A stretch of DNA of 64,000 nt, taken from contig NZ_WBIQ01000001.1 of NCBI RefSeq assembly GCF_009749405.1, positions 310,001-374,000 of the forward strand, read 5' to 3'. Position 1 is the first letter of the stretch. Every line of letters begins with the position of its first letter. The translations under genes were made by a program, and so were the position numbers. The DNA comes from Agromyces lapidis (GTDB lineage: Bacteria > Actinomycetota > Actinomycetes > Actinomycetales > Microbacteriaceae). Under the pieces are notes generated by a model, which had not been told where the DNA came from, ran no database searches, and worked only from the letters and a program-made list of their open reading frames with translations. Positions 3,297 to 52,186 of this stretch are shown here, piece after piece.

Positions 3297-4796
<1,500 letters not shown>

Positions 4797-4807
4797 CCGA
4801 GCAAGGC

Positions 4808-4824: not shown

Positions 4825-4925
4825 ACTCCGTTTCCGGATCGATAGTCTCCGAGGAATCGGGTCGGTCGCATCGAGGAGCGCCGTGACCACCCCCACCGGT
4901 GACGATGAGGTTCCAGGAGGCGGCG

Positions 4926-6362: not shown

Positions 6363-6395
6363 ACGGGCCGAACCCGCGCAGGCCACGGAACGACG

Positions 6396-6438
6396 GAACG
6401 GGGCGACGCGAGCGATGATCGCTCGCGACGCCCCGTTC
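6396..6438. terminator. Bidirectional hairpin terminator
   Basis: A 19-bp stem with one mismatch (gaacggggcg.. paired with ..cgccccgttc) and a 5-nt loop ATGAT, between the convergent amine oxidase and carboxylase genes. The stem is very stable. No clear U-tract is present, as is common in high-GC actinobacteria. Confidence 0.75.
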
Positions 6439-6449
6439 GGCGGTCGGCG

Positions 6450-8222
6450 TCAGGCGTCGGCGATCGAGAGCAGCAGGTGCCCGCTCGAGACGGTCGCGCC
6501 GGCTTCGGCGTTCACCGCGCCGATCACGCCGTCCTTGTGGGCGACGATCGGCTGCTCCATCTTCATGGCCTCGAGCACGAGCACGAGATCGCCCTTGACG
6601 ACCTTGTCGCCCTCGGCGACGGCGACCTTCACGACCGTCGCCTGCATCGGCGCCTTCACGGCGTCGCCGGTGCCGGTGTCGACGGCGTGCGATCCGGTGC
6701 GCCGGCGCGGCGCGGGGCCGGCGGTGCGCGATGAGGCGGATGCTCCGCCCGCGAGCCGCTTCGGAAGGCTGACCTCGATGCGGCGCCCGGCGACCTCGAC
6801 GACGACGTTCGTGCGCGCTGCCGGGCCGGTGGTCTCCTCGAGCTCGCCCGACCACGGCTCGAGCCGGTTGTCGTACTCGGTCTCGATCCAGCGCGTGTAG
6901 ATCGAGAACGGTGCATCGCCCTCGGGCGCGAACGCGGGGTTGTTCACGATGTCGCGATGGAAGGGCAGCACGGTCGGAAGCCCGGCGACCTCGAACTCGT
7001 CGAGGGCGCGGCGGGCGCGCGAGAGCGCCTCTTCGCGGTCCTTGCCGGTGACGATGAGCTTCGCGAGCAGCGAGTCGAACGCGCCCGAGATCTCGTCGCC
7101 GCTCGTCACGCCCGAATCGACGCGGATGCCGGGGCCGCCCGGGAAGCGGAGCTGGTGGATCGGGCCCGGTGCGGGGAGGAAGCCCCGGCCCGGGTCCTCG
7201 CCGTTGATGCGGAACTCGATCGAGTGGCCGACCGTTTCGGGGTCGGCGTAGTCGAGCACGCCGCCCTCGGCGAGACGGAACTGCTCGCGCACGAGGTCGA
7301 GGCCGGTGACCTCCTCGGAGACGGGGTGCTCGACCTGGAGGCGCGTGTTCACCTCGAGGAAGGAGACCGTGCCGTCCTGGCCGATGAGGAACTCGCAGGT
7401 GCCGGCACCGACGTAGCCGACCTCCTTGAGGATCGCCTTCGACGATTCGTACAGCGCCGAGCGCTGCGCCTCGCTGAGGAACGGCGCCGGCGCCTCCTCG
7501 ACGAGCTTCTGGTGGCGGCGCTGCAGCGAGCAGTCGCGGGTCGAGACGACGACGACGTTGCCGTGCTGGTCGGCGAGGCACTGGGTCTCGACGTGGCGCG
7601 GCTTGTCGAGGTACTTCTCGACGAAGCACTCGCCGCGGCCGAACGCGGCGACCGCCTCGCGGGTGGCCGAGTCGAAGAGTTCGGGCACCTCCTCGCGGGT
7701 GCGGGCGACCTTGAGGCCGCGGCCGCCGCCGCCGAAGGCGGCCTTGATCGCCACGGGCAGGCCGTGGACGTCGACGAACTCGAGCACTTCCGAGGCATCC
7801 GCGACGGGGTTGAGGGTGCCGGGCGCGAGCGGGGCGCCGACCTTCTCGGCCACGTGCCGTGCGGAGACCTTGTCGCCGAGACGCTCGATCGCCTCGGGCG
7901 AGGGGCCGATCCAGATCAGGCCTGCATCGATGACGGCGCGCGCGAAGTCGGGGTTCTCGGCGAGGAAGCCGTAGCCGGGGTGCACGGCGTCGGCGCCCGA
8001 GCGGCGGGCGACCGAGAGGATCTTGTCGATGACGAGGTAGGTCTCGGCGCTCGTGGTGCCGTCGAGGGCGTACGCCTCGTCGGCGAGTCGCACGTGGCGG
8101 GCGTCGCGGTCCTGGTCGGCGTAGACGGCGACAGAGCCGATGCCGGCGTCGCGAGCGGCGCGGATCACGCGGACGGCGATCTCTCCACGGTTGGCGATGA
8201 GGACCTTGGTGATACGCGGCAT
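6450..8222 (-). CDS. Acyl-CoA carboxylase alpha subunit: biotin carboxylase + biotin carboxyl carrier (AccA3/AccBC type)
   Basis: Carboxylates its own biotin with ATP and bicarbonate for acyl-CoA carboxylation (fatty acid or branched-chain precursor supply). 590 residues: biotin carboxylase N-domain starting [19 protein letters not shown]-grasp with the glycine-rich loop [12 protein letters not shown] near residue 165; biotin carboxylase C-domain to ~450; linker; BCCP domain with biotinylated lysine in EAMKMEQ near residue 555. ATG 8222 is chosen because the MPRITKV start matches the family; the longer frame adds 32 unrelated residues. Its partners, the beta and epsilon subunits and the biotin ligase, lie 6-8 kb away (13.8-16.7 kb). 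Confidence 0.93.
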
Positions 8223-9014: not shown

Positions 9015-10376
9015 ATGGTGAATCCCGATCGTCGACGCCGCAGCTCCGCGCGCCGTCCCGCCCGTGCGCAGGGCGCCGCACCCCGCCCGGCCCGCCCCGC
9101 ACCCGCCGAGCCGCGGCTCGACGGCCCCGTGCTCGAACTCGACGTCGAACGGATCGCCCACGGCGGCGTCGCCGTCGCCCGCCACGAGGGGCGGGTCGTC
9201 TTCGTCGCCGACGCCATCCCGGGCGAGCGGGTGCGCGCCCGGGTCACCGACACCGGCAAGGCCAAGTTCTGGCGCGCAGAGACCCTCGAGGTGCTCGACG
9301 CCTCGCCCGATCGGCGTGAGCACCCCTGGGCCGAGGCCGGGGTCGACCGCGCCCCCGAGCACCGTGCGGGCGGCGCCGAGTTCGGTCACATCGCCATGTC
9401 GCGCCAGCGCGCGCTGAAGGCCGAGGTGCTCGTCGACGCGCTCGCTCGCTTCGGCGGCGTCGAGCGGGCCGTCGAGGTCGAGGCCGTCGATCCGGCGCTC
9501 GCGCCCGGCGCCGACCCCGAGCTCGGCACCGGATGGCGCACCCGGCTCCGGCTGCAGGTCGACGCCGAGGGCCGCGTCGGCCCGTACGCGGCACGCAGCC
9601 ACCGGGTCGTGCCCGTGGCATCCGTGCCGCTCGCCGTGCCCGAGCTCGCCCCGCTCGCCCCCGTCGACGAGCGCTTCGCCGGCGCCCGGTCGGTCGACCT
9701 CGTCGCCCCCTCGCTCGGCAACCCGTGGGTCGTCGTCGACACCGGCGAGGCGACGCGGGGCGGTCGCACCCAGCGCATCGAGGAGCAGGTCGGCGACCGC
9801 GTCTTCCGGCTCGACCGCGGGGGCTTCTGGCAGGTGCACCGCGGTGCGGCCGCGACCCTGAGCGCCGCCGTGCAAGACCTTGTGCACGACGAGCTCTTCG
9901 ATCCGCGCGCCGCGAACCACGACCTCTACGGCGGCGTGGGCCTGCTCGCCGCCGCGATCGGCGATCGATTCGGCGACACGGTGCGCATCACCTCCGTCGA
10001 GTCCGACGCGCGCGCCACCGAGCACGCGGGCACGAACCTCGCCGACTGGGTCGGAGCGCGTGCGGTCACCGGCCGGGTCGATCGCTATCTCGACGAGCTC
10101 GCCGCCGCCGCGAGCCCCTCCGAGCGCGAGCGGCTGCGTGCCGCGACCATCGTGCTCGACCCGCCGCGCTCGGGCGCCGGTCGCCAGGTCGTCGAACGTC
10201 TGGCCGCCCTCGCCCCGCGGCAACTCGTCTACGTCGCGTGCGACCCGGTCGCACTCGCCCGCGACGTCGGCATCTTCGCCGAGCACGGCTACCGGCTCGA
10301 CGCCGTCCGGGCCTTCGACCTCTTTCCGAACACCCATCATGTCGAGGCGGTCGCGCGTCTGACCGCTATCGTGTGA
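9015..10376 (+). CDS. TRAM-domain class I SAM-dependent RNA (uracil-5) methyltransferase family protein
   Basis: TrmA/RlmC/RlmD-type enzyme expected to methylate C5 of a uridine in rRNA or tRNA (453 residues). A basic, low-complexity N-terminus (1-35) leads into a TRAM domain (LELDVERIAHGG...GERVRARV), then the Rossmann methyltransferase with DPPRSGAG and the catalytic cysteine in YVACDPVALARD; PNTHHVEAVA closes the protein. The [4Fe-4S] cysteines that RlmD-type members carry after the TRAM domain are missing: the corresponding stretch (around HPWAEAG...AGGAEFGHI) has none. It is divergent from maf. The target nucleotide cannot be deduced. Confidence 0.87.
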   Translation: MVNPDRRRRSSARRPARAQGAAPRPARPAPAEPRLDGPVLELDVERIAHGGVAVARHEGRVVFVADAIPGERVRARVTDTGKAKFWRAETLEVLDASPDRREHPWAEAGVDRAPEHRAGGAEFGHIAMSRQRALKAEVLVDALARFGGVERAVEVEAVDPALAPGADPELGTGWRTRLRLQVDAEGRVGPYAARSHRVVPVASVPLAVPELAPLAPVDERFAGARSVDLVAPSLGNPWVVVDTGEATRGGRTQRIEEQVGDRVFRLDRGGFWQVHRGAAATLSAAVQDLVHDELFDPRAANHDLYGGVGLLAAAIGDRFGDTVRITSVESDARATEHAGTNLADWVGARAVTGRVDRYLDELAAAASPSERERLRAATIVLDPPRSGAGRQVVERLAALAPRQLVYVACDPVALARDVGIFAEHGYRLDAVRAFDLFPNTHHVEAVARLTAIV

Positions 10377-10393
10377 TTCGGGAAGGGGGGCCT

Positions 10394-11083
10394 GTGACGG
10401 ACGACGTGCAGACGACGAAGGCCGTGGCGACAGTCGCGATCGTCGACGACCACGAAGCGGTGCGCCTCGGCCTGCGCGCGGCGTGCGAGGCCGCGGGCTA
10501 CGAGGTCATGGCCGACGCGGCCGACGTGGCCGAACTGCTGCCGGTGATCGAGGCGCGGCGGTGCGACGTGGTCGTGCTCGACCTCTCGCTCGGCGACGGC
10601 ACCACCGTGACCGAGAACGTGCGCGCGGTGCTCGCGACCGGCAGTGCGGTGCTCGTGCACAGCATCGCCGACCGCGTCGCGGCGGTGCGCGAATCGCTCG
10701 CCGCGGGCGCAGCGGGCGTGATCCCGAAGGCCTCGCCGATGTCCGCCGTGATCGGCGCGATCGCGACGGTCGCAGGCGGCGGGGTGCTCACGAACGTCGA
10801 ATGGGCGAGCGCGATCGAAGCCGACCGCGAGTTCGCGAAGGCGCAGCTCGGGCGGCGCGAGCGCGACGTCCTGCATCTCTACGCCTCCGGGCTCCCGTTG
10901 AAGGCGGTCGCGATGCAGCTCGGCATCGCCCACTCCACGGCGCGCGAGTACCTCGACCGGATCCGGGCGAAGTACGTCGAGATCGGCCGCCCGGCGCCGA
11001 CGAAGGTCGACCTGCTGCGGCGCGCCGTCGAAGACGGCATCCTCCCGGGTCTCGACGCCGAGAGCGGAGATGGCCGCCGCTGA
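10394..11083 (+). CDS. LuxR/NarL-family response regulator
   Basis: Two-component response regulator of 229 residues. The receiver domain (VAIVDDHEAVRLGL, phospho-acceptor Asp in VVVLDLSLGDG near residue 58) is followed by a C-terminal LuxR-type HTH (LGRRERDVLHLYASGLPLKA, then AMQLGIAHSTAREYLDRI). GTG 10394 is the start, preceded by a GGAAGGGGGG ribosome site; an upstream -10 TATCGT overlaps the end of the methyltransferase gene. The sensor kinase gene begins 14 nt before this stop, so the pair is translationally coupled. Target genes are unknown. Confidence 0.88.
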   Translation: MTDDVQTTKAVATVAIVDDHEAVRLGLRAACEAAGYEVMADAADVAELLPVIEARRCDVVVLDLSLGDGTTVTENVRAVLATGSAVLVHSIADRVAAVRESLAAGAAGVIPKASPMSAVIGAIATVAGGGVLTNVEWASAIEADREFAKAQLGRRERDVLHLYASGLPLKAVAMQLGIAHSTAREYLDRIRAKYVEIGRPAPTKVDLLRRAVEDGILPGLDAESGDGRR

Positions 11084-12357
11084 ATGGCGGGTGCCCCGCC
11101 TTCCGCAGCGCAAGCCCGCGGTGACGCGTGCGCAGATCGAGACGATCGTCGCACGCGCGCTCGGCGTCGTGGGGCTCGTCTTCGGGGCGCAGTCGCTGCC
11201 GCTCGCGCTCGACCAGGCTGACGCCCTCGGCGTCGGCGCGGGCGCGGCGCTCATGGCGGCGCTGTTCGGCGGGATCGCCGCGCTCGCCGTCGCCACGGTC
11301 GCGAAGGTCGCCGTGCGCGCCGCGTGTCTCGTCTTCGCCGGGTTCTACGTCGCAGGGCTGGCGATCTGGCCGCTGCTCGTCAGCGACCCCGCTGCGCTCG
11401 ACGGCGCGGCGCCCTGGCTGTACTACCTGTGCACCGTCGCCACGACCTGCGCCGCAGTGGCGCTCCCGCCGGTCTGGGCGGCCGCCTACACCTTCATCGT
11501 GCCCGCCATGTACGGCGTCATCCGCTTGACCCCGTCGGGAGGTCAGGCGCCGCCCCTGCTCGCGGTGCTCGACGCGCTCTACGCGGTCGTGCTCGGCGTC
11601 GTCGTGCTCGCGATCATCACGATGCTGCGCGAGGCCGCCTCGGCGGTCGACGCCGCCCAGGAGGCCGCGCTCGAACGCTACGACCTCGTCGCTCGGCAGC
11701 ACGCGACCGAGACGGAGCGCGTCAAGGTCGACGCGCTCGTGCACGACAGCGTGCTGACGACCCTGCTCTCGGCGGCATCGGCGAGGAGCGAGGGCGAAGA
11801 ACGGCTCGCGGCCAGGATGGCGAGGGACGCCCTGCACCGGCTCGACGAGGCCGGGGCGAGCGGCCCGCGCGCCTTCGATCGGGTCGGGCTGTCGGTGCTC
11901 GTGCGACGCCTCCGCGCCGCCCTGACGACGTTCAACACGAACTTCGCGGTCAGGGTCGTGAACGCCGGTGGCGTCGAACTGCCGGTCGAGGTCGTCGACG
12001 CGCTCTACACGGCGTCGGTGCAGGCGATGGTCAACAGCGTGCAGCACGCGGAGGAGCCGGGGCGACGTGCCCGGCGCGAGATCCGGATCAGGGGAGTGCG
12101 CGCGGGGGGGCTGCGTCATCGAGATCGCCGACAACGGCGTCGGATTCGATCCGGGCCGTGTGCCGAGCGAGCGGCTGGGGCTCCGCGTCTCGATCGAGGA
12201 GCGGATCGCGAACGTCGGCGGCAACTCGGAGATCGCCTCACGGCCCGGCCACGGCACGACCGTGACGCTCGCGTGGCCGGCCGGTGCGCTCGGCGGCGAC
12301 CCCGGGGCGTTCGGTGGGGCGTCGGGCGTGGCGCCTGCGGCGGGAGGCGACGCATGA
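11070..12357 (+). pseudogene. Membrane sensor histidine kinase (HisKA_3/HATPase type) interrupted by a +1 frameshift
   Basis: Partner kinase of the preceding response regulator. Residues 1-190 hold about six membrane segments; a dimerisation helix carries the phospho-accepting His in ALVHDSVLTTLL, and the N-box is QAMVNSVQHA. After a run of seven G at 12104-12110 the reading frame is lost. The rest of the HATPase domain (CVIEIADNGVGFDPG, then ASRPGHGTTVTLAW) continues in another frame to TGA 12357. Removing one G restores a continuous kinase of about 428 residues whose stop overlaps the next ATG (ATGA). As written, the 5' frame instead runs on into the next gene. Sequencing error, phase variation or true inactivation are all possible. 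Confidence 0.8.
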
Positions 12358-13376
12358 TCACCATCCCGCGGTGGCTCCTCCTCGTGCTCGGCGCGCTCTT
12401 CTCCGCCTACCACGTCGTCCTCGGCGTCTACTCGCTCGAAGTGCCCGATTCGCCGTGGCCGACCGTGGTCGCGCTCGTGCTGTACACCGCGGCGACGGTC
12501 GCGAGCCTCTGGCCGGCCCGCCGGGTGCGGATGCCCGATTGGCTCGCCGCCTTCGACCTGGCGGTGAGCATCGTGCTGCCCCTCCTCGTCACGAGCCAGC
12601 TCGACCCGTCCGCGGACAACGGCTACGCGACCTGGTACGTCGCGGCGGTCGGCACGCTCATGACGATCGCCGCCGCCCGACGCCGACTGGTCACGGCCTG
12701 GGTCGGCGTCATCGCGCTCGCCGTGCAGACCGCGCTGTGGGCGGGTCCGCTCGCGCTCGGCTCGCTCGGGGTCATCGGCAGTCTCGTCTGGGTCGCGATC
12801 GCCCATATGCTCACGAGTGCCCTCACGAACGCCGGCCGCGAGACGCGACGGTACGCGCAGGCCGAGCGGGAGGCCGCCGCGTGGCAGGCGGCGCAGGACG
12901 CCCACCTCTTCGAGGGGCGGATGCGGCTCGCGCACACGAACCGCGTCGCCGCGCCGATGCTGCGCCGCATCGCCGACCGCGACGGTCGGCTCGACGAGCG
13001 GCAGCGGGCGGAGTGCCGGCTGCTCGAGGCGACGATCCGCGACGAGATCCGCGGGCGGATGCTGCTCACCGACGTCGTGCGCGCCGAGGTGCAGCGGGCC
13101 CGTCAGCGCGGGGTGATCGTCACCCTGCTCGACGAGGGCGGGATCGACGATCTCGACGAGGCCGCGCGCGACCGGGTGCTCTCCCGGCTCGCCGAGGCCA
13201 TCGCGGCGTCGACCGCCGACCGCCTGATCGCGCGCACGGCGGCGGAGGGCTCTCCCACCGCGGTCACCGTCGTCGGGCTCGTCGGTGCCGTGGACGACGA
13301 GGGCGCGGCGTCCGGCGACACCGAGGACCTCGAGGTCGAGCTGTGGCTCGAGATCCCGCGCGCGCTCGGGGCGTGA
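12354..13376 (+). CDS. Histidine-kinase-like membrane protein, probably lacking a functional catalytic domain
   Basis: 340 residues. The N-terminal half has about five to six membrane helices resembling the sensor domain of the preceding kinase. The cytosolic half starts with a helix RLAHTNRVAAPMLRRI that looks like a degenerate phospho-His region, but no N-box or G-box (DxGxG) of an ATPase domain is visible. ATG 12354 overlaps the kinase stop by 4 nt, so the three genes form one coupled operon. It may modulate the kinase. I recognise no named family. Confidence 0.65.
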   Translation: MITIPRWLLLVLGALFSAYHVVLGVYSLEVPDSPWPTVVALVLYTAATVASLWPARRVRMPDWLAAFDLAVSIVLPLLVTSQLDPSADNGYATWYVAAVGTLMTIAAARRRLVTAWVGVIALAVQTALWAGPLALGSLGVIGSLVWVAIAHMLTSALTNAGRETRRYAQAEREAAAWQAAQDAHLFEGRMRLAHTNRVAAPMLRRIADRDGRLDERQRAECRLLEATIRDEIRGRMLLTDVVRAEVQRARQRGVIVTLLDEGGIDDLDEAARDRVLSRLAEAIAASTADRLIARTAAEGSPTAVTVVGLVGAVDDEGAASGDTEDLEVELWLEIPRALGA

Positions 13377-38757: not shown

Positions 38758-40536
38758 ATGAAGCAAATCGCTCGCACCCTCCGGCGGCTCCTGCCGTTCC
38801 TGCCGCACTCAGCGCGTCGGTTCCTCCTCATCTTCTCGCTGATCTCCGCAGGTCTCGCCGTCATCGACGTCGTGGCGCTGATGCTCCTCGCACTGACCCT
38901 CGCCGCGGTGATCTCCGGCGAGCCGCTGTCGCTGCCGATCATCGGCCAGATCGGCGAGGACCAGGTCTTGTGGCTCGTCCTCGTCCTCGCCCTGATCGTC
39001 ATCGGCAAGTCGGCCGCCAACGTGTGGCTCCAGTGGATCGCGACGCGACGGTTCGCGTCGTACGAACTCGCGATCGGCCAGGAACTCTTCGGCGCGTACA
39101 TCCGCGCCTCGTGGACCGATCGGCTCTCGCGCAACAGCGCCCAGATCGTGGCGATGACCGACAGCGGCATCGCCAACGTCGTCGCGGGATTCCTCCTCCC
39201 GCTCACGACGCTGCTGGGCCTCCTGGTGACATCCGTCGGAGTGGTCGGCGTGATCGTGTTCGCCCAGCCCGTGACGGCGCTCGTCACGGTCGTCTACCTG
39301 GGCGGTATCGCGATGCTGCAGTACGTCGTGCTCAGCGGCAAGACGAGACAGGCGGCGCGGGTCGCACGCGACTCGTCCTTGCGCGTTGCCGCGCTCATCT
39401 CGGGGATGGTCGCGTCCCTGAAGGAGATCACGCTGCGCGACAAGGCCGACGAGGTCAGCGAGGTCGTACGCAGGAATCGGGCCCAGACCGCCCAGGCCCG
39501 CGCGAACGCGAGCTTCCTCTCCGCGGTTCCGCGGTTCATCTTCGACGCGGCGATCATCGGCGGCTTCCTCATCGTGGGCGGCGCCGCCTTCCTCTTCGGC
39601 GGACGGGAGGAGGCCATCGCGGCCATCGCGTTGTTCGGTATCGCGGGATTCAGGCTCGTCCCCTCGCTCACCGGGTTCCAGGCCGTCATCACCCGGACGA
39701 TGACCTCCGTCCCGTATGTCGATGCCGTGGTCGCGGACGTCGAGGCGTCGGCGAAGTTCCGCGCCGATCGCGAGGTGCTCGGCAAGGAGCCGCTGCCCGG
39801 ACAGCCGAAGGTGCTCGAGCTGACCGACGTGGCCTTCACCTTCCCGGGTAGCGACGTACCCGCCGTTCGCGACGTCGACCTGAGCGTGCCGATGGGGTCG
39901 AGCATCGGCATCGCGGGCGCCTCGGGCGCCGGGAAGTCCACGCTCATCGACCTGCTGCTCGGCCTGCTGACGCCGACCGCGGGGCAGATCCGTATCGACG
40001 GGCTGCCGCTCGAAGAGGTGATGGACGCGTGGCGCAAGCACGTGGCGTTCGTCCCCCAGGAGGTGACCCTCTTCGACGGCACGATCGCGCAGAACATCGC
40101 CCTCACCTGGGGCGACGAGGTCGACCTGGCCAGAGTGGAGCAGGCCGCCCGCCGCGCCCAGCTGTGGAGCGTCATCGAGCAGCGAGCGAACGGACTGAAC
40201 GAACGGGTCGGAGAACGTGGTCTCGCCCTCTCCGGCGGTCAGCGGCAGCGACTCGGGATCGCACGCGCCCTGTACACGGATCCGCTCGTGCTCGTCCTGG
40301 ACGAGGCGACGAGCGCCCTCGACACCAAGACCGAATCCGACGTCGCCGCGGCGATCCGCGATCTCCGTGGCGACGTCACCGTGATCGCGGTCGCGCATCG
40401 GCTCAGCACGATCCGCGAGTCGGACATCGTCATGTTCATGAAGGACGGGACAGTCGAGGCTCAGGGCGACTTCACCTCGGTCGTGGCGCAGAGCCCGGAG
40501 TTCGCGGCTCAGGCGAAGCTGGCCGGGCTCGCATGA
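38758..40536 (+). CDS. ABC exporter half-transporter, PglK/MsbA type (lipid-linked glycan flippase)
   Basis: 592 residues, fused permease and ATPase; works as a homodimer in the cytoplasmic membrane. Six helices span ~20-310. The nucleotide-binding domain has Walker A GASGAGKST near residue 390, Q-loop FVPQEVTL, signature LSGGQRQRLGIA, Walker B LVLVLDEA and H-loop AVAHRLST. Its position inside the glycan operon, 4 nt after the dehydrogenase gene, suggests it flips a lipid-linked oligosaccharide like PglK. The substrate is inferred. Confidence 0.85.
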   Translation: MKQIARTLRRLLPFLPHSARRFLLIFSLISAGLAVIDVVALMLLALTLAAVISGEPLSLPIIGQIGEDQVLWLVLVLALIVIGKSAANVWLQWIATRRFASYELAIGQELFGAYIRASWTDRLSRNSAQIVAMTDSGIANVVAGFLLPLTTLLGLLVTSVGVVGVIVFAQPVTALVTVVYLGGIAMLQYVVLSGKTRQAARVARDSSLRVAALISGMVASLKEITLRDKADEVSEVVRRNRAQTAQARANASFLSAVPRFIFDAAIIGGFLIVGGAAFLFGGREEAIAAIALFGIAGFRLVPSLTGFQAVITRTMTSVPYVDAVVADVEASAKFRADREVLGKEPLPGQPKVLELTDVAFTFPGSDVPAVRDVDLSVPMGSSIGIAGASGAGKSTLIDLLLGLLTPTAGQIRIDGLPLEEVMDAWRKHVAFVPQEVTLFDGTIAQNIALTWGDEVDLARVEQAARRAQLWSVIEQRANGLNERVGERGLALSGGQRQRLGIARALYTDPLVLVLDEATSALDTKTESDVAAAIRDLRGDVTVIAVAHRLSTIRESDIVMFMKDGTVEAQGDFTSVVAQSPEFAAQAKLAGLA

Positions 40537-41738
40537 CCGGCGTGCTGAGAGATCTCACGCGGAAAGCGGGTATCGCCTACCGGCTCGCAGTCGGGTCGCT
40601 GCCCGATCGGATCTCCCGGTGGCTCCGGCCGCCATCGCGCCGGTACTCGCTCGCGGAGGTCCCGGCTCCGGTGACCGCGCCCGCGGGCGATGTCCGACTG
40701 TACGTCGCGCCGGCGAACTTCGCCGCCCAGGGCTACCAGTGGGCGCGTTCCGCCGAGCGCCTCCAGGGAGTCGGCGCGGTCAACATGCAGTACCGCACGC
40801 GCAGCGACTTCGGCTTCCCTGCCGACTACTCCGTCTCCGAGAGAGTGTTCACCTCGTCGGGCGACTGGGGCCGGCGACAGCGGGACGCGGTGGCGGCACA
40901 ATTCACCCACGTGCTCATCGAAGCGGAACGTCCGCTCTTCGGCCTCGCATTCCAGGGATTCGTCGAACGCGAGGCGAACTGGCTACTCGAGCGCGGCCTC
41001 GCGGTCGGCTTGGCGAGCCTCGGAACGGATCTCCGTCTGCCGAGCCGCCACGCTCAGGTCGACGAGTGGTCGCCGTTCCGCGACGCCGACCAGGACTGGA
41101 TCCGCACACTCGAGGCCCGCGCGCTGAGGAATCGGGAGATCTTCGCCCGACTCGACGTGCCCTCCTTCGTGGCGACGCCGGAGCTCCTCCTGGATTGGCC
41201 GGCGGCGTCGTGGCTCCCGATCGTGGTCGACCCGACCGAGTGGAGGACCGATCGCGAGGCGCTGTCCGGCGAGACGCCGGTCGTTCTGCACGCCCCGACG
41301 AACCCGGCGGTCAAAGGGACGGCGCTCATCGAGCCGACCGTGAATCGACTCGCGGCGGAGAAGGTGCTGGATTATCAGCGGATCGTCAAGGTTCCTGCCG
41401 GCGAGATGCCCGCACGATACTCGAGCGCCGATGTCGTGCTCGACCAGTTCACACTGGGAATCTATGCGACGACCTCCATCGAGGCGATGGCGGCGGGTCG
41501 ACTGGTCATCGCGCATCTCCATGATCAGGTCCGGGACCACATCCAGCAGGTGAGCGGATGCGAGGTGCCGGTCGTCGAGGCGACCCCGGCCACGCTCGAG
41601 GAGGTCCTTCGGGATATCACGGCGCACCCGGAGAAGTATCGGCCGATCGCGAACGCCGGTCCGGCCTACGTCGAGGCGGTCCACAACGGCGCGCTGTCCG
41701 CGCGCGTGCTGGCTCCGTTCCTGGGGCGGACGCCGTGA
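40533..41738 (+). CDS. Glycosyltransferase-like protein (GT-B fold)
   Basis: 401 residues. No strong family match by eye, but the layout is GT-B: an N-terminal half with YVAPANFAAQGYQWARSAER and a C-terminal half with VVLHAPTNPAVKGTALIEP, KVPAGEMPARYSSADVVLDQ and TTSIEAMAAGRLVIAHLHD (donor-site-like E). Similar proteins with a HAPTNPxxKGT segment occur in capsule clusters. ATG overlaps the ABC stop and GTG of the next gene overlaps its stop, so all are translationally coupled. Confidence 0.65.
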   Translation: MTGVLRDLTRKAGIAYRLAVGSLPDRISRWLRPPSRRYSLAEVPAPVTAPAGDVRLYVAPANFAAQGYQWARSAERLQGVGAVNMQYRTRSDFGFPADYSVSERVFTSSGDWGRRQRDAVAAQFTHVLIEAERPLFGLAFQGFVEREANWLLERGLAVGLASLGTDLRLPSRHAQVDEWSPFRDADQDWIRTLEARALRNREIFARLDVPSFVATPELLLDWPAASWLPIVVDPTEWRTDREALSGETPVVLHAPTNPAVKGTALIEPTVNRLAAEKVLDYQRIVKVPAGEMPARYSSADVVLDQFTLGIYATTSIEAMAAGRLVIAHLHDQVRDHIQQVSGCEVPVVEATPATLEEVLRDITAHPEKYRPIANAGPAYVEAVHNGALSARVLAPFLGRTP

Positions 41739-43054
41739 GCGGGCGCCACCTGCTCCTCACCGCATGGGCGTTCGCGCCGGCCAGGACCAGCGGCGTGTAT
41801 CGCGCCATCGGACTGGCGAACGCATTCGCCTCGCGCGGGTGGGACGTCACGGTCCTCACTGCACCCGAGAAGACTTTCGCCGATGAGGGCGTCATCGACG
41901 CTTCCCTGTCCGAGCAGATCCATGACCGAGTGCGCACGGTGCACGTGCCGTTCTCCTCGGGCCTGTACGCGAGCGATGTCGCGGAGTGGTCGCGGACCCA
42001 AGCCCGATTCCCTGAACTCTGGGGCGCCGTGCGTGGGCTGCCCTTCCCGGAGGCCGGCTTCGGCGGTTGGCGTCGCGCCCTGGCCCGCGCCGCTGACAGA
42101 GTGCACCGCACCACGCGCGTCGACCTCACGCTCGGAACTGCGAGCCCTTCCGTCGACTTCATTCCCGGCTGGCACCTGAAGCGCCGACACGGTGTGCCGA
42201 ACATCATGGACTACCGCGACGCCTGGACGATCGACGTGTTCACGGGTGGGCGCAACCCACGGGCCACTCGGCGCTCCGAGCAGTGGGAGTCTCGGCTCAT
42301 CGATTCCGCGGATCAGGTCTGGTTCGTGAACGAGCCGATCCGGGGATGGCACGCGGCCAAGTACCCACTGGCGGCCGACCGGATGCGTGTGGTCTCCAAT
42401 GGGTTCGACGTGGTCGACGGGCAGTCGCCGGCGGTGCCGATGGTCGATCACGTGCCGGGGCGCCCGCTGACCTTCGGCTACCTCGGAACGATCAACCACG
42501 GGCAGTTCCCGACAGAGGCGCTGCTTGCGGGCTGGACGCGCGCACGTGAACGATCGACCGAACTGGCGGGAGCCAGGCTCGTGCTTCGGGGATACCTCGG
42601 GCGGACGGGCATCGCCGACGAGCACCTGGAGGACTTCCTGCGCCGCGGCGCCGCGGTCGGCATCGCCTACGAGGGGCCGGTCGCGAAGGCCCAGATCCAA
42701 GACGTCTACGCGACGTTCGATGCCCTCGTACTCGCGCTCGCGAGTGGGCCAGGGGTGACCAGCGGCAAGGTCTTCGAGTTCGCGGCGACGGGGCTTCCGG
42801 TCGTCTCGGTCCATGATCCCTCGAGCGCGGCCTCGGCCGTCATGGAGGGCTCCCCGGTGTGGTCGCCGACGGCCTCGATGGGCCCCGACGACATCGCCGA
42901 TGCGCTCATCGTCGGCGCCGAGCGTGCTCGCACGCAGACGGCGCAATCCCGAGCCGAGGCGATCTCGTGGGGTGCGCAGTGGGAACGCGGGCACCAGCTC
43001 CAATCCGCGGTGGACGGTGCCGAGCGACTGCTCGCCACGGGAGGCGGGCGCTGA
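41735..43054 (+). CDS. GT-B glycosyltransferase, first copy of a duplicated cassette
   Basis: 439 residues. The N-terminal HLLLTAWAFAPARTSGVYRA and VTVLTAPEKTF begin the acceptor domain; DFIPGWHLKRRHGVPNIMDYRDAW, WFVNEPIRGWHAAKYP and the donor region SGKVFEFAATGLPVVSVHDP follow. It is a paralogue of the protein at 46256-47614, sharing these segments in the same order. GTG 41735 overlaps the previous stop (GTGA), and the next gene starts on its stop codon (TGATG). The sugar is unknown. Confidence 0.8.
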   Translation: MSGRHLLLTAWAFAPARTSGVYRAIGLANAFASRGWDVTVLTAPEKTFADEGVIDASLSEQIHDRVRTVHVPFSSGLYASDVAEWSRTQARFPELWGAVRGLPFPEAGFGGWRRALARAADRVHRTTRVDLTLGTASPSVDFIPGWHLKRRHGVPNIMDYRDAWTIDVFTGGRNPRATRRSEQWESRLIDSADQVWFVNEPIRGWHAAKYPLAADRMRVVSNGFDVVDGQSPAVPMVDHVPGRPLTFGYLGTINHGQFPTEALLAGWTRARERSTELAGARLVLRGYLGRTGIADEHLEDFLRRGAAVGIAYEGPVAKAQIQDVYATFDALVLALASGPGVTSGKVFEFAATGLPVVSVHDPSSAASAVMEGSPVWSPTASMGPDDIADALIVGAERARTQTAQSRAEAISWGAQWERGHQLQSAVDGAERLLATGGGR

Positions 43055-43476
43055 TGGACATCGTCGTACTCGCGCCGAGCGGACGCTATTCCGCCGATGC
43101 GCTGCCCGGGCTGGCCGAGACCGACCGTGTGACCGTGGTCAGCTGGGTGGGGGCACCTGCGGTCGAAGCGGACGAGGTGCTCGAGCTGAGGCAGTCCCCT
43201 CGATCAGCGAGGGTGGTCGCGGTGCTCTCGCGCAGCCTGGCGGGCCGAATGCTCGTCCGGGTGCTGCCGCTCGACGGCGGCGCGCGATTCTGGCGGGCAT
43301 CGGTCGCAGCGGGAGAAGTGGCACGGAGGATCGGCGAAGCGGACCTGATCATCGCGGCGGAGCGCGACGGCGGATTCGCCGCCTGGAAGTGGATGCGGAA
43401 CACCTCGCGCACGGGCGCGCCGCCGGCCGTCGTGCGTGGCTACGCCGCGGCGCGGGCGCGGATCTCCCGTCGGTGA
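43054..43476 (+). CDS. Small protein of unknown family, first copy of the cassette
   Basis: 140 residues, no signal peptide or membrane helix. The N-terminus MDIVVLAPSG is beta-strand-like, the middle has RVLPLDGGARFWRA, and the best conserved part is EADLIIAAERDGGFAAWKWMR. A homologue (45825-46259) sits in the same place behind the paralogous glycosyltransferase, which suggests joint action with that enzyme. It shares a 1-nt overlap with the glycosyltransferase gene. I recognise no named domain; a truncated nucleotide-binding fold is only a guess. Confidence 0.7.
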   Translation: MDIVVLAPSGRYSADALPGLAETDRVTVVSWVGAPAVEADEVLELRQSPRSARVVAVLSRSLAGRMLVRVLPLDGGARFWRASVAAGEVARRIGEADLIIAAERDGGFAAWKWMRNTSRTGAPPAVVRGYAAARARISRR

Positions 43477-43550
43477 ACGGAAGCGACCTGCATCGAGCGT
43501 CGTTCGCGATCGATCGGGCGCAGGCGTCGGTGCGCCCGTGAAGGCTCGGA

Positions 43551-43556
43551 TAGGAT
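43551..43556 (+). promoter_or_regulatory. -10 box upstream of the CapD-like gene
   Basis: TAGGAT, 6 nt before a GTG at 43563 that opens a nine-codon frame. Confidence 0.45.
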
Positions 43557-43562
43557 CGGGGA

Positions 43563-43592
43563 GTGAAAATGCGGTTGGAACGGGTGCGATGA
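43563..43592 (+). CDS. Nine-codon leaderless mini-ORF overlapping the capD-like start
   Basis: GTG 43563 lies 6 nt after a TAGGAT box and would be the 5' end of the mRNA. It encodes MKMRLERVR and stops at a TGA overlapping the ATG of the next gene (ATGA). Coupling of the downstream gene to translation of this peptide is inferred. A second case occurs at 61348. Confidence 0.35.
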   Translation: MKMRLERVR

Positions 43593-44971
43593 GACGGGTA
43601 CTGGTCGTCGGGTACGGCACCGCCGGCATCGGCATCGCCGATGATGCCGCGGCCCACGGCGACGAGGTCGTCGGGTTTCTCGACGATGCGAAGCAGGGCC
43701 CACGGGTACTCGGGCGGCTTGCCGAGGTCAACCGTGTCGTCCGTGAGCACGCCGTCGACTCGGTGTACTTCGCGATTCCGACGGTCGACGCTGCGAAGCT
43801 GCGCGAGTTCCTCGCCGGGCTCGAGCAGACGGGCCTGCAGCTGTCCATGCTCCCTCGGACCTACGAGACGATCAGTCGTGAGACGGTCAGTGTCAACGAC
43901 CTGACCGACGTGGACGTCCTGCAACTGGTCGGTCGAGAGCCGGTCAAGCACGACATGCTCGACGCGCGACAGATGGTCGAGGGTCGCAGGGTCCTGGTGA
44001 CCGGGGCGGCCGGTTCGATCGGTTCCCGGCTCGTGGAGCACCTGCTCAACCTCGGTGTCGGAGCCGTGATCGCGCTCGACTGGTGGGAGACCGGCCTGTT
44101 CCACCTCGCGAACCGGCTGCACGACGAGCGGCTGAACGTCGTCGTCGCCGACGTCAAGAACGTGCGCCGTCTGGAGCGGATCTTCGACGCGCATCGACCG
44201 GAACTCGTCTTTCATGCCGCGGCGTACAAGCACGTGCCGCTCATGGAGGAGAATCCCGCCGAGGCGATCGCCAACAATGCGCTCGGGGCCGAGAACGTCC
44301 TGCGTCAGGCGATCGCCTCCGGGGCGAGCCACGCCGTCTACGTCTCCACCGACAAGGCCGTTCGCCCCGCCAACGTCATGGGGTCGACGAAACGGCTGGG
44401 TGAACTCCTCCTCGGCGACCTCGCGCGCGACTCCGGCTCGACCAAGCTGACGGCCGTCCGATTCGGGAACGTGCTCCAGAGCAACGGGAGCGTGATGGAG
44501 ACCTTCCGCCGGCAGATCGAGCAGGGCGGTCCGCTCACGGTCACCCATCCCGAGGTCACGCGCTTCTTCATGACGATCGACGAAGCCGCGCATCTCATCA
44601 TCCAGTCCGCCCTGTTGGGCTCGAACGGCGACATCTGCGTCCTCGACATGGGTGAGCCCGTACGGGTCATGGATCTCGCGGAGAGCCTGGTGAAGGCGAC
44701 GGCGCCGCACATCGAGATCAAGGTCACGCAGCTTCGTCCTGGTGAGAAGCTGTACGAGGAGTTGACGTACAACCCCGAACTCGCGACGAGCACGGCCAAC
44801 AGCAAGGTGTTCATCCTCCAGGTGGAGAACGAGATGGATGTCCCGGTCGCCGAGATCCGCGGCACGCTCGACCGCGTACGAATTGGCGAGCTGTCCGACG
44901 ACGATGCACGTGCCGCCCTCGTGGACATGGGCTTCAAGATCGATCCTCGGGTATCCCCGGGAAGCTCGTGA
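43589..44971 (+). CDS. UDP-HexNAc 4,6-dehydratase, CapD/WbpM family, lacking the membrane domain
   Basis: 460 residues. A CoA-binding-like N-domain (RRVLVVGYGTAGIGIADD) precedes the SDR domain: VTGAAGSIGSRLVEHLL near residue 140, AAAYKHVPLMEENPAEA, YVSTDKAVRPANVMGSTK (Met in place of the SDR Tyr, as in WbpM/PglF) and LRPGEKLYEEL. Usual long members have four N-terminal helices (~600 residues); these are absent. It makes a 4-keto-6-deoxy-UDP-HexNAc. The reductase-like gene follows with a 4-nt overlap. Confidence 0.86.
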   Translation: MRRVLVVGYGTAGIGIADDAAAHGDEVVGFLDDAKQGPRVLGRLAEVNRVVREHAVDSVYFAIPTVDAAKLREFLAGLEQTGLQLSMLPRTYETISRETVSVNDLTDVDVLQLVGREPVKHDMLDARQMVEGRRVLVTGAAGSIGSRLVEHLLNLGVGAVIALDWWETGLFHLANRLHDERLNVVVADVKNVRRLERIFDAHRPELVFHAAAYKHVPLMEENPAEAIANNALGAENVLRQAIASGASHAVYVSTDKAVRPANVMGSTKRLGELLLGDLARDSGSTKLTAVRFGNVLQSNGSVMETFRRQIEQGGPLTVTHPEVTRFFMTIDEAAHLIIQSALLGSNGDICVLDMGEPVRVMDLAESLVKATAPHIEIKVTQLRPGEKLYEELTYNPELATSTANSKVFILQVENEMDVPVAEIRGTLDRVRIGELSDDDARAALVDMGFKIDPRVSPGSS

Positions 44972-45828
44972 CTTCGGCTCGCACGATCCTCGTGACGGGA
45001 GGGCGAGGTCGTCTCGGGCGGTTGCTCGTCGAGGATCTCCGCGCGGCGGGGCCCGAGGTGGTCTCGCTCGGCCGTTCTCGGCACGACGCAGACCATCCCG
45101 ACGACGTCGTCGTCGACCTGCGGGACTCGGATGCGGTGGCGGACATCACGCGGCGGTCCGCGCCTGAGGTGATCGTGCATCTGGCATCGGTCTTGCGGGG
45201 TGGCGAGCTGGCCGCGGACAACCGGCTCATCGACTCGGCAGTCGCCGGCGCCGCGCGCGAAGCCCGCACACGGCGGATCGTGCACATCTCGTCGGGCGCC
45301 GTCTACGGAACGTCCGCCACCGAGGCACGTCGCGAGGACTCGGCGCTCGAGGGCGACGGCCCGTATGCGAAGTCGAAGATCGCTGGAGAAGAGCTGTTTC
45401 GAACCCTCGCGGACGATCGCCCCGAAACTGCCGTGATGACGCTCCGGGTCTTCAACGTCGCAGGCCCGGCGTTCCCGGATTCACTCGTGCACAAACTCAT
45501 GCATGCCACGAGCGCGGAGCCGGTGACGGTCGTCGCTCCCGATCGTTTCGTCCGCGACTACATCCACCAGAGCGACGTGCTCGCGGTGCTCCGCGCGGCA
45601 GTCGGTGCCGAGCATGCCGGCCATCGCGTGCTCAACGTGGGTGCAGGGGCGGCGATCTCGACACGGATGCTGCTCGCCGGTCTGCAGATCGATGATGCGC
45701 GAGTCGTCGAGAAGGACGGCGGACCGAGCTTCAATTGGGCCGACATCTCGCTGTTGCTCGAGACGCTCGGCGTCGTGCCCGGTCAGGGTCCGACACGCGA
45801 CTGGGAGTCGGCGACTCGCGCGGACTAG
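44968..45828 (+). CDS. NAD-dependent epimerase/dehydratase (SDR), putative 4-ketosugar reductase
   Basis: 286 residues, extended SDR. Cofactor motif VTGGRGRLGRLLVEDL, VHLASVLRGG, catalytic HISSGAVYG and PYAKSKIAGEE, then LRVFNVAGP and a FVRDYIHQSDV substrate loop. Coupled (GTGA) to the CapD-like dehydratase, so it may reduce the 4-keto product to a 6-deoxy-HexNAc such as QuiNAc or FucNAc (inference). Its TAG stop overlaps the opposite-strand stop of the small protein gene in a shared CTAG. Confidence 0.8.
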   Translation: MTSARTILVTGGRGRLGRLLVEDLRAAGPEVVSLGRSRHDADHPDDVVVDLRDSDAVADITRRSAPEVIVHLASVLRGGELAADNRLIDSAVAGAAREARTRRIVHISSGAVYGTSATEARREDSALEGDGPYAKSKIAGEELFRTLADDRPETAVMTLRVFNVAGPAFPDSLVHKLMHATSAEPVTVVAPDRFVRDYIHQSDVLAVLRAAVGAEHAGHRVLNVGAGAAISTRMLLAGLQIDDARVVEKDGGPSFNWADISLLLETLGVVPGQGPTRDWESATRAD

Positions 45829-46259
45829 TCTCGTGCGGCGGCCAGCAGCGTCCGCGCGGCGGCGATGCCGTAGACGGCCTTCGCTTCAACGGGCGCCGAG
45901 CGTCGAACGCCCTTCCATGCGGCCAGGATGCCGTCGCGCTCGAGAGCGACGATCAGGTCGGCTTCGGCGAGTCGTGCCCGCAGCTCGCGGTCGTGACGCG
46001 CGGCGCCTGAGAAGCGCCTGCCCGGGTCGAGCGGACTCAGCCGGAGCAGGTTCCGTCCGGCGGCGGAACCGCCGAGGGCGCGCGCCGCGCGGGCGGTGAG
46101 GGCCGACAGCGCCGGCTTCAGCACGATCGCATGCACACCGTCACGGGCATCCGGGACGGACCGGGAGACGACGGTGATCCGGTCGATCGCCGGGTCGGGC
46201 GCGAGCTGCTCGAGCGCGGAATCGACGGCACCCGAGGGGACGAAGAGCACGATGTTCAC
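45825..46259 (-). CDS. Small protein of unknown family, second copy of the cassette
   Basis: 144 residues, homologous to the protein at 43054: both begin MxIVxxxPSG, have a LSPLDPGRRF / LPLDGGARF segment and end with EADLIVALERDGILAAWK / EADLIIAAERDGGFAAWK. No transmembrane segment or signal. GTG 46259 overlaps the stop of the upstream glycosyltransferase gene (GTGA). The function is unknown; co-occurrence with the same glycosyltransferase type twice suggests a partner or regulator of it. Confidence 0.7.
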   Translation of the reverse strand: MNIVLFVPSGAVDSALEQLAPDPAIDRITVVSRSVPDARDGVHAIVLKPALSALTARAARALGGSAAGRNLLRLSPLDPGRRFSGAARHDRELRARLAEADLIVALERDGILAAWKGVRRSAPVEAKAVYGIAAARTLLAAARD

Positions 46260-47614
46260 CGAGCCGCCTCCGTCCGACGGCGATCATCGACCATCGTATG
46301 AAGCGCAGCGATCTGCGGGTCGAGTTGACGACCTCGCTGAAACTGCGTCGCCCACTCGCGCGCCGTCGCGCGCGCCTCCGGGGTCTGGTCGAGCGCGGCG
46401 TCGGCGGCGTCGATCAGGGCGTCGGCGATCGTCGACGGTTCGAGGTCGGCGACCGGGTACCACGCGGCCGCGTCGCGCAGCACGTCGCTGGCCGCGTTGC
46501 CGGGGTCGTGCACCGAGACGATGGGGAGACCGGTGGCGGCATACTCGTACACCTTGCCGCTCGTCACGTAGCGCCCGGTTCCGAGGACCAGGAGCAGCGC
46601 GTCGAATCGCGTGTACACGGCTCCGACCTCCTTCTTGGCGACGGCCCCGTGGTAGGTGATGCCATTCTCCGCGAAGGTGCTCATCTGCCGCGCGATCGCC
46701 TCGTTCGGTATGCCGGCGTGATTCAGGTGGCCCCAGAGCTCGACGCGCGATGCGGCGAGGAGCGGCGACCGGGTCCGAGCGAGGCGCCACCCGGCGACGA
46801 GTCGATCGACCGGGACGGCGGCGGACATCGTTCCGACGTAGCCGAACACGAGTCCCTGATCGGACGGCATCCGATCGGTCGGTTCGGGAGGGCTGTCGTA
46901 GCCGTTCGCGACGACGTGGAATCGGTCGGCCCGTGCCGGATAGAGATCGGCGTGCCATCGCAGGATCGGCTCGTTGACGAACCAGACTGCGTGGGCGTTC
47001 TCGATGAGCTCGCGCTCCCAGCGGGCGACCGCGCTGCCTTCGGGGCTCAGTCGGGCGCCGCTGAAGACATCGAGCTGCCATGCATCGCGGTAATCCATCA
47101 CGTAGGGGATTCCGAAGCGCTCGTGCAGCACATGACCGGGGATGAAGTCGACGTGGGGATTCGCCGAGCCGAGGACGAGGTCGACGGGATGGCCATCATG
47201 GACCTCGAGCGCGGCCGACTCCAGCGCCGAACGCCAGCCCCCGTACGTGCGTTCGGGGAACGACTTCCTCTCCCGACGCGAGCTGAGGACGTTCCACAGC
47301 TCGGGCGCCGTAGCGCGCGAACGCGGCCACCGGCGCAGGTCGCTCTCGAACGCCGCGGAGTGGAACGGGACCCGGACGATCTCGATCGAAGGGTCGACGG
47401 TGCGTTCGAGGGACTCGTCGATGCCCGTCGACATGGTGAACGTCTCGCGGGGAGCGGCGAGGACCGTGACGTCCCAGCCTGCCGCGGCGAACGCGTTCGC
47501 GGTGGCCCAGGTGCGGTAGACGCCACCGCCGCGGCTCGGAGGGAATCCCCATGCGACGTACAGCAGATGGGGCCGGGTCTCGGCCGGAGCCGGAGTCGGC
47601 GTCGGAGCAATCAC
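46256..47614 (-). CDS. GT-B glycosyltransferase, second copy of the cassette
   Basis: 452 residues, paralogue of the protein at 41735: LLYVAWGFPPSRGGGVYRTW, VTVLAAPRETF, NPHVDFIPGHVLHERFGIP, WFVNEPILRWHADLYP, and the donor site SGKVYEYAATGLPIVSVHDP. GTG 47614 is taken because of a GGGAGG site 9 nt upstream; TTG 47650 abuts a TACACT -10-like box and would lie upstream of the transcript. The Pro/Thr-rich N-terminus (~20 residues) is variable. Confidence 0.8.
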   Translation of the reverse strand: MIAPTPTPAPAETRPHLLYVAWGFPPSRGGGVYRTWATANAFAAAGWDVTVLAAPRETFTMSTGIDESLERTVDPSIEIVRVPFHSAAFESDLRRWPRSRATAPELWNVLSSRRERKSFPERTYGGWRSALESAALEVHDGHPVDLVLGSANPHVDFIPGHVLHERFGIPYVMDYRDAWQLDVFSGARLSPEGSAVARWERELIENAHAVWFVNEPILRWHADLYPARADRFHVVANGYDSPPEPTDRMPSDQGLVFGYVGTMSAAVPVDRLVAGWRLARTRSPLLAASRVELWGHLNHAGIPNEAIARQMSTFAENGITYHGAVAKKEVGAVYTRFDALLLVLGTGRYVTSGKVYEYAATGLPIVSVHDPGNAASDVLRDAAAWYPVADLEPSTIADALIDAADAALDQTPEARATAREWATQFQRGRQLDPQIAALHTMVDDRRRTEAAR

Positions 47615-47738
47615 GCTGCGGCGCCTCCCAATCGTCGATGTCCTCGTCAAGTGTACTCGGTCGCCGGAGGCGCTCTGGGCGGGGCGGCGGACGTCGCTCA
47701 GCCCAGAGCTCGGTGACGTGGTGCCCCGTTCATCGACT

Positions 47739-47744
47739 TAGGAT
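47739..47744 (+). promoter_or_regulatory. -10 box of the nucleotide-sugar dehydrogenase operon
   Basis: TAGGAT, 7 nt before ATG 47752. Confidence 0.5.
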
Positions 47745-47751
47745 GATATCC

Positions 47752-50201
<2,450 letters not shown>

Positions 50202-50263: not shown

Positions 50264-52186
50264 CTACTTCTTGGTCGTGAAGTGGGGCGCCCACTGCTCG
50301 GGGGCGGTGATCTCGGGCAGCGCGGCACGGTACTCGCGGGCGAGTTCGGGCCAGCGTCGCTTGAGCTCGCGGTGCAGGCGCCGGCTCTCGCCCAGGAGGC
50401 GGCGGAACGTCTTCGGGTCGCGGGTGTAGCGCACCTTGCCCGAGCCGTCGGCGGTGGAGACGAGGGCACTGTCGAAATGCGGCAGGCGGAACCACGTGCC
50501 GTCGCGCTTGGAGAGCTCGACCTGTGGTTCGGCGACGTTCTTCGACGCGGGGCTCGTGAACCACTGCCGAGCGGTCATCTGCAGCGTGAACAGGATGAGC
50601 GACACCCCTCGCGGTCCCTTGGGACCGATCGTGCCGGTCGGCACCGGGTAGACCCGCTTGCCCTCGACGGTCCTCGGGATCTCCGATTCGTGGCGCAGCA
50701 CGGTCTTCTCGGGGAAGTCGGCCGCAGCGGCCCGGAGCTCGCTCAGGATGGTCGGCATGCCCTGCTGCATGTGCGCGGGGCCGGAGAGGATGTCGCGCAG
50801 CGCGCGGTGGCGGAGCGTCACGGGGTAGTACTGCATCGAGAGGAGGTGCTTGAGGTCCCAGCGTTCGCTGTCGCGCGCGAGGAGTCCGCCGTTCGGGAAC
50901 GGTGAATGCAGCAGCGCGGCGACGATGCGGTTGCGGGCGTGGAAGTACGCCTGCCAGTCGATCGAGTCGTCTTTGTCGAGCCAGGAGACGTGCCAGAGCG
51001 CCATGCCGGGCAGGCTCACCGTCTGGTAGCCGGCATCGCGGGCGCGGAGGCAGTACTCCGCGTCGTCCCACTTGATGAACGCCGGCAGCGAGAGTCCGAT
51101 CGCGCGAATGATCTCGGTGGGGATGAGGCAGAACCACCAGCCGTTGTAGTCGGCGTCCATGCGGGAGTGCATCCAGCTGGTCTGGCGAAGGTTCGAGAAA
51201 CGGAAGTCGTGCGGCACCTCGTCGTGCGGCTGCTGGTGCCAGACGAACGGCTTGAGGTCGACCGTCTCGGCGAAGGCGTGCAGCACCGGTCGGTTGAGCA
51301 GGTCGAACATGTGGCCGCCGACGATGACCGGGCGGGTCGCGTGGCGCGAGAACCGCACCGCCCGCGCGATGCTCTCGGGCTCGATGGTGACGTCGTCGTC
51401 GAGCAGGATGAGGAAGTCGCTCGACCCGGCGTCGAGCGTCTCCGACATCGATCGGGCGAACCCGCCGGAGCCGCCGAGGTTCGGCTGCTCGATCATGGTG
51501 AGCGCATCGCCCAGCCGTTCGGCGACGGCGGCGAAGCCGGGCTCGTCGACCACGCGCTGGTTGCCCTGATCGACGATGTAGATGCGGTCGATGATCTCGC
51601 GCACCGCGTCGTCGCCCGCGAGCGCTTCGAGGGTGCCGACGCAGTAGTCGGGCTTGTTGAAGGTGGTGGTGCCGATGGAGGCGCCACCCGAACGCAACTC
51701 GGGGGCATCGGTCAGCCACCGTCCGTCGGCGACGACGACGTCGGTGTCGCTGGCGACGATGTCGAACCAGTACCAGCCACCGTCGCCGAAGGTGGTGACG
51801 GGCAGGTCGATCTCGTGCCGGACCGTGCCGGAGAACGGTTCGGCGGCGACCCGCTGAGGGACGCCCTGCGCGGTCGAGCGGTAGACGAGCAGGTTGCCCT
51901 CACCGCTCGTCTCGACCGAGAGCCGGACTCGCTCGACGTTGGTCCACTGCTGCCAGTACGAGGCGGGGAAGGCGTTGAAGTAGCTCGCGAAAGAGACGCG
52001 CTCGCCCGCGCCGACGCGGAACCGGTCACGATCGAGGATGTCGTCGAGGTGGCTGCGATCGCTCACCCTGACCTCGCGGTCGCCCACCTTCGCCCAGACA
52101 TCGGCGTCGACGTACAGTGAGATGACATCGGGGTCGGCATCCTGAGGGAAGACGACGCGCTGGATCTCGTTCCAGGTCAGGCTCAC
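50264..52186 (-). CDS. GlfT2-like galactofuranan glycosyltransferase (GT2)
   Basis: 640 residues, the length of mycobacterial GlfT2. The N-terminal beta-rich domain (1-~170) precedes the GT-A domain (TTTFNKPDYCVGTLEALAGD; IYIVDQGNQRVVDE; EQPNLGGSGGFARSM); the metal site is LILLDDDVTIEPES and the acceptor/catalytic site KWDDAEYCLRARDAG with WHVSW further on; a helical C-terminal region follows. It would add Galf from UDP-Galf. GTG 52186. It converges with glf through a strong terminator. Linkage type unknown. Confidence 0.85.
   Translation of the reverse strand: MSLTWNEIQRVVFPQDADPDVISLYVDADVWAKVGDREVRVSDRSHLDDILDRDRFRVGAGERVSFASYFNAFPASYWQQWTNVERVRLSVETSGEGNLLVYRSTAQGVPQRVAAEPFSGTVRHEIDLPVTTFGDGGWYWFDIVASDTDVVVADGRWLTDAPELRSGGASIGTTTFNKPDYCVGTLEALAGDDAVREIIDRIYIVDQGNQRVVDEPGFAAVAERLGDALTMIEQPNLGGSGGFARSMSETLDAGSSDFLILLDDDVTIEPESIARAVRFSRHATRPVIVGGHMFDLLNRPVLHAFAETVDLKPFVWHQQPHDEVPHDFRFSNLRQTSWMHSRMDADYNGWWFCLIPTEIIRAIGLSLPAFIKWDDAEYCLRARDAGYQTVSLPGMALWHVSWLDKDDSIDWQAYFHARNRIVAALLHSPFPNGGLLARDSERWDLKHLLSMQYYPVTLRHRALRDILSGPAHMQQGMPTILSELRAAAADFPEKTVLRHESEIPRTVEGKRVYPVPTGTIGPKGPRGVSLILFTLQMTARQWFTSPASKNVAEPQVELSKRDGTWFRLPHFDSALVSTADGSGKVRYTRDPKTFRRLLGESRRLHRELKRRWPELAREYRAALPEITAPEQWAPHFTTKK

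Follow-up and report, generated by a model that had tools for sequence, protein, structure and literature searches.

Paired genes for a GT4-type glycosyltransferase and a small protein resembling half a glycosyltransferase in Agromyces lapidis suggest a two-subunit enzyme

The 64,000-nucleotide stretch of Agromyces lapidis DNA analysed here (positions 310,001 to 374,000 of contig NZ_WBIQ01000001.1, from a 3.80 Mb genome in 15 contigs; hereafter the window) carries two facing cassettes, A and B, each comprising a gene for a glycosyltransferase (GT) and a gene for a small protein (Table 1; the protein named GT-B is distinct from the GT-B fold). Our analysis suggests that the small protein is a half-GT subunit and that GT and small protein work as one complex building a cell-surface sugar coat. 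The reading that we favour, and hold to be fairly probable, is that the two genes of each cassette specify a two-subunit GT, namely a complete GT4 enzyme and a non-catalytic half-GT that binds it and stabilises it or aids acceptor handling. The large subunit would be a complete, presumably active GT4-type enzyme (its family and, for GT-B, its fold by prediction). The small subunit would be the lone N-terminal half of a GT-B-type enzyme (from predicted fold and remote homology); lacking the nucleotide-sugar-binding C-terminal half, it would presumably be no standard GT-B catalyst alone. Overlap of the genes would couple the synthesis of the two proteins and keep it near equal, and they would bind each other, both the complex and its stoichiometry being presumed. 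As the least certain step, the small subunit would stabilise the GT and help to hold or select the acceptor, a growing cell-surface glycan.

An earlier note on this DNA had described two closely coupled GT and small-protein pairs at the positions in Table 1, and all four open reading frames (ORFs) are indeed open there. The GT-A stop codon shares one base with the ATG of small-A (TGATG), and the GT-B stop codon overlaps the GTG of small-B by four bases (GTGA). The paralogy proposed in that note also held: GT-A and GT-B are 48% identical across 427 residues (E 1e-117), and small-A and small-B are 41% identical across 123 residues (E 4e-16) with an EADLI-x-A-x-ERDG...AAWK core in both. Ratios of non-synonymous to synonymous substitution rates (dN/dS) against the orthologues in genome G032 (codes with G, C, L and f are our own for genomes, contigs, loci and families) came to 0.22 and 0.32 in the small proteins, compared with 0.14-0.15 in the GTs, and therefore purifying selection is apparent on all four genes. 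Although the small protein resembles half a GT, these ratios and the retention of its open frame beside the GT in many genera make it extremely improbable that it is a decaying, functionless remnant of a former GT gene.

The large proteins were assigned by domain profiles and a predicted structure. PF13439 (GT4 N-terminal domain, cut-off 28.5) scored above its cut-off for both GT-A (46.2 bits) and GT-B (38.6), and PF13692 (Glyco_trans_1_4 C-terminal domain, cut-off 27) scored just above for GT-B (27.3) and just below for GT-A (24.7). The GT-B model, with a predicted local distance difference test (pLDDT) value of 81 and a predicted template modelling score (pTM) of 0.82, has a two-domain GT-B fold, and its closest solved folds were MshA (best PDB match, E 2.4e-16) and other GT-B enzymes. 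The likeness to MshA and other GT4 enzymes thus lies in this predicted fold and in the Pfam domains; to our knowledge, MshA requires no such small partner. GT4 enzymes are retaining, and E357 within GKVxE, which we take to be the GT4 catalytic-domain Glu, was invariant across 12 aligned GT sequences. Residues 88-124 of GT-B were predicted with low confidence despite strongly conserved residues; this candidate binding region may become ordered upon binding the acceptor or a partner.

No convincing Pfam or NCBIfam family was found for the small protein, which agrees with the earlier note's failure to place it; it is, however, in all probability a free-standing protein distantly related to the GT4 N-terminal half, because both the predicted fold and profile comparisons point to this relationship. 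The small-B model (pLDDT 90.2, pTM 0.85) has an alpha/beta Rossmann-like fold. The Pfam profile Glyco_transf_4 matched neither small-A nor small-B, and at E<=0.1 it matched 4 of 50 small-protein members (best 1.1e-3). PDB sequence searches gave nothing convincing. A copy of the N-terminal half of its own partner was ruled out, there being no similarity between the two. In the 50-member alignment, start codons were set by rule, which inflates the conservation of M1. An acidic low-complexity stretch lies ahead of the conserved C-terminal part in the small proteins of L088, L089, L091, L093 and L094.

The alpha/beta Rossmann-like fold is common to many enzymes, and non-GT enzymes occur among the Foldseek matches listed for the small protein, which might suit a separate small enzyme that acts on a sugar or lipid intermediate of the same pathway and is merely co-transcribed. 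This is very unlikely, since no invariant polar residue was found across the 50 members, the ERD core is replaced in many of them, no enzyme family was matched convincingly, and the stop-start overlap described below is concentrated at the GT junction. The structure and profile comparisons proposed in the earlier note thus matched no unrelated enzyme family convincingly.

The arrangement of the pair was evaluated in the window plus 65 loci (66 sequences searched for the small protein), which had been found by the small protein (L012-L016, L027-L030), by the GT (L088-L135) or by both (L136-L143). Fifty small proteins were detected, and 47 of them have a GT on the same strand no more than 700 bp away (45 follow it, 2 precede it). 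An in-frame start codon overlaps the stop codon at 42 of these 47 junctions, compared with 6/45 junctions where the second gene meets the following one and 12/47 where the preceding gene meets the first (a lenient count). The reversed gene order in L014 and L016 retains a 4-base overlap. Two pairs face each other in L090 (genome G754), as in the window, and two pairs share a single strand in L112 (G707). In L110 and L113, 930-residue ORFs (9900-12692 and 4021-6813, respectively) consist of a GT with about 480 further residues, and the nearest GT is 1.6-1.7 kb away from the small protein, on the opposite strand.

Not every GT has such a neighbour. An adjacent small protein was detected for 27 of 58 GTs in the GT-selected loci, and 31 of all 78 GTs had none; two of these 31 (L101, L123) are followed by far-diverged members, and the far-diverged set from L101, L119 and L123 aligned to the small protein with an hhalign probability of 92. 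Thirteen of the 31 overlap some ORF of at least 100 residues. The small protein is thus not universally required.

Overlapping genes would also suit a chaperone dedicated to folding or stabilising the GT, with no part in catalysis or acceptor choice, and a precedent is EryCII, which stabilises the GT EryCIII, though it also activates it (excerpted account, PMC3391682). We consider such a chaperone decidedly unlikely, as a protein probably akin to a GT half would be expected to act more specifically and some GT clades manage without the small protein.

The small protein could instead be an adaptor joining two GTs of the pathway, the GT4 enzyme and a second GT, rather than a subunit of one enzyme. 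In L127, a small domain forms the N-terminus of a 711-residue protein with a GT C-terminal domain, and its gene overlaps the upstream GT by four bases; a similar small-domain fusion was read from the sequence of L126. Several GTs without a small protein overlap a downstream gene of 350-617 residues that is GT-like by eye, and in the window the gene just before GT-A, which overlaps it, is GT-like. This adaptor role nevertheless appears unlikely: the small protein adjoins a GT in 47/50 cases, the fusion was seen only in L126 and L127, the L126 fusion and the GT are on opposite strands and 3.4 kb apart, and the sole such downstream protein scanned (529 residues, L131) matched no Pfam family. The L126 GT also overlaps by 4 bases a 553-residue protein that by eye looks like the L127 fusion with the small domain taken away, leaving linker and GT part.

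Co-occurrence of GT and small protein was examined in genus, family, order and phylum samples, with the own genome and some family genomes present in both the family and the order samples. The best candidates scored per genome numbered 10 in the family small-protein search, 4 in the family and order GT searches, 5 in the phylum GT search and 11 in the order small-protein search. Small-protein profiles were built from GT-near members or their relatives, so that far-diverged free members could be missed. In the genus sample, the GT was found at E<=1e-40 in 6/60 genomes and small-B matched 7/60 relatives, which without G029 are the same six genomes. The GT was found at E<=1e-50 in 10 of 398 family genomes; the small-protein profile matched 13/398, and the 10 credible ones are identical to the ten GT genomes. 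In the order sample (GT at E<=1e-35 in 37/347 genomes), a 50-member profile matched 29/347, and all 26 strong matches (E<=1e-15) fall inside the 37 GT genomes. Within this sample, the two genes of the pair are coupled to each other in 15 genus codes or more. Only 3 of 346 phylum genomes, including the own genome, contained the GT, and plasmids gave no GT match at 1e-30.

Weak matches were set aside as follows: G029 (E 3.9e-4), with unrelated housekeeping ORFs at the matching locus (L017) and no GT at 1e-40; G145, G155 and G352 (E 8.5e-5 to 3.4e-4), with no GT match in their loci; G495, G611 and G719, the three order genomes outside the 37; and a third match in the own genome (contig C12, E 6.8e-4). 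Among the 37 order genomes with a GT, 11 had no credible small-protein match (ten from f20 and one from f17), and the f17 genome (G052), although counted as GT-only, holds a far-diverged candidate about 1.3 kb past the GT (L119).

The co-occurrence check proposed in the earlier note therefore shows, in both the family and the order samples, that credible small proteins do not lie mostly apart from the GT. The proposed tie stands in that all credible small-protein genomes have the GT, across genera and with frequent gene overlap; the stronger claim that the GT needs the small protein goes too far for the whole GT family, in view of the genomes and GTs without one and of a nested clade described below.

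A tree of 78 GTs was built after 4 of 82 GT matches with split frames had been dropped. The nearest neighbours of GT-A are one G032 copy and, next, the G754 copy; for GT-B they are the other G032 copy, followed by copies from Microbacterium. By these sequence relationships, the window cassettes are old paralogues, each with separate relatives in other species and genera. The placement in different old subclades rules out a recent inverted duplication in place and indicates that two pairs were brought together, or stayed neighbours, and not that one was flipped. Of the "inverted duplicate" in the earlier note, the paralogy and the facing orientation thus remain, and retention following an in-place duplication is not supported. 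At the DNA level, inverted repeats in 41500-47900 comprise 13 short patches of 24-71 nt with 70-79% complementarity, the five longest of which pair homologous genes of the two cassettes.

Five changes of the label "small protein adjacent" are needed on the GT tree. Seven f20 GTs that lack the small protein form a clade nested among clades that have it, suggesting loss or strong divergence in sequence; other GT groups without it sit deeper in the tree. The N-terminal region of large f20 proteins aligned to the small protein with a probability of 4.6, above all 60 shuffles.

Distances between GTs correlated with those between small proteins (r 0.70, 0/2000 permutations), and the correlation was 0.34 after removal of close GT pairs (0/2000 permutations); shared ancestry accounts for part of it. 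When own and swapped pairings were compared with the own genome and G032 left out, the own pairing was ahead in the window (1.31 vs. 1.11) and in L090 (1.38 vs. 0.88), and not in L112 (1.33 vs. 1.40). In L090, the nearest relative by GT differs from the nearest by small protein.

Table 1. Genes of the two cassettes and their neighbours, in window coordinates.
Feature	Position	Strand	Remarks
GT-A, GT4-type glycosyltransferase, 439 aa	41735..43054	+	PF13439 and PF13692 scores; 48% identity with GT-B
Small-A, 140 aa, free-standing protein probably related to GT4 N-terminal half	43054..43476	+	
GT-B, complete GT4-type glycosyltransferase, 452 aa	46256..47614	-	predicted GT-B fold
Small-B, 144 aa, free-standing protein probably related to GT4 N-terminal half	45825..46259	-	
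GT-like protein, 401 aa	40533..41738	+	sub-threshold PF13524; 4-base overlap between its stop and the GT-A start
CapD-like polysaccharide biosynthesis protein (PF02719)	43586..44971	+	between cassettes
NAD-dependent epimerase/dehydratase (short-chain dehydrogenase/reductase, SDR)	44968..45828	+	between cassettes
UDP-sugar dehydrogenase	47716..49053	+	UDPG_MGDP_dh domains
UDP-galactopyranose mutase-like protein	49050..50201	+	named by eye from sequence
Galactofuranosyltransferase, GlfT2 family	50264..52186	-	PF17994, PF19320

Because the UDP-sugar dehydrogenase, CapD-like and GlfT2 proteins and, by eye, a UDP-galactopyranose mutase-like protein are encoded nearby, the gene content points to a locus probably concerned with a galactofuranose-containing surface glycan. 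The SDR gene and small-B converge from opposite strands, and their 3' ends share four bases (45825-45828). The GT-like protein at 40533-41738, whose sole Pfam match is sub-threshold, has an 'APANFAAQG' motif. Inspected by eye, f20 loci lacking the small protein have look-alikes of it next to the GT; the motif also recurs in some downstream f20 proteins, where it follows an additional stretch of about 150 residues at the N-terminus.

Partners of this general kind are known, as judged from excerpts of the published accounts; they include GtfB, EryCII and Alg14, and each differs in make-up from the small protein. In the O-GlcNAc transferase GtfA/GtfB of serine-rich-repeat adhesins, one protein is the GT, the other is a chaperone that contacts the acceptor, and the complex is tied to a shared domain, DUF1975 (PMC6973325). 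The likeness is a two-protein GT with an acceptor-interacting partner; in contrast, DUF1975 is absent from the Pfam matches listed to E 10 for either GT (HMMER filters drop most above 0.1), and the partner in the window cassettes has only about 140 residues. Alg13/Alg14 and bacterial EpsE/EpsF are split transferases with a free-standing N-terminal half (PMC4973528), likewise paired with another subunit. Their partner, however, is a C-terminal half alone from a MurG-like parent, whereas here it is a complete two-domain GT4-type protein. EryCIII resembles the cassettes in that this GT depends on a second protein, EryCII, for activation and stability (PMC3391682); EryCII, in turn, is homologous to P450 enzymes, whereas the small protein resembles a GT half. 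No account of such a GT and small-protein pair was found among the papers listed by full-text searches, judged by titles and the openings of abstracts and reaching few subscription journals, and excerpts of a paper on actinobacterial exopolysaccharide clusters (PMC13390465) held nothing on such a pair.

As a broader and tentative proposal, which we regard as somewhat unlikely, stand-alone GT4 N-terminal halves in Actinomycetota might be an unnamed family of obligate, fast-evolving partners that set GT4 acceptor specificity, with glycan repertoires diversifying by exchange of half-enzymes. GT4 is a very common kind of glycosyltransferase and is usually studied as single proteins. If the half-enzyme partner is real, GT assays without the small protein would miss a subunit. 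The pair would then offer a simple system for how acceptor choice is divided between proteins, and an unannotated small-protein family would gain a testable role.
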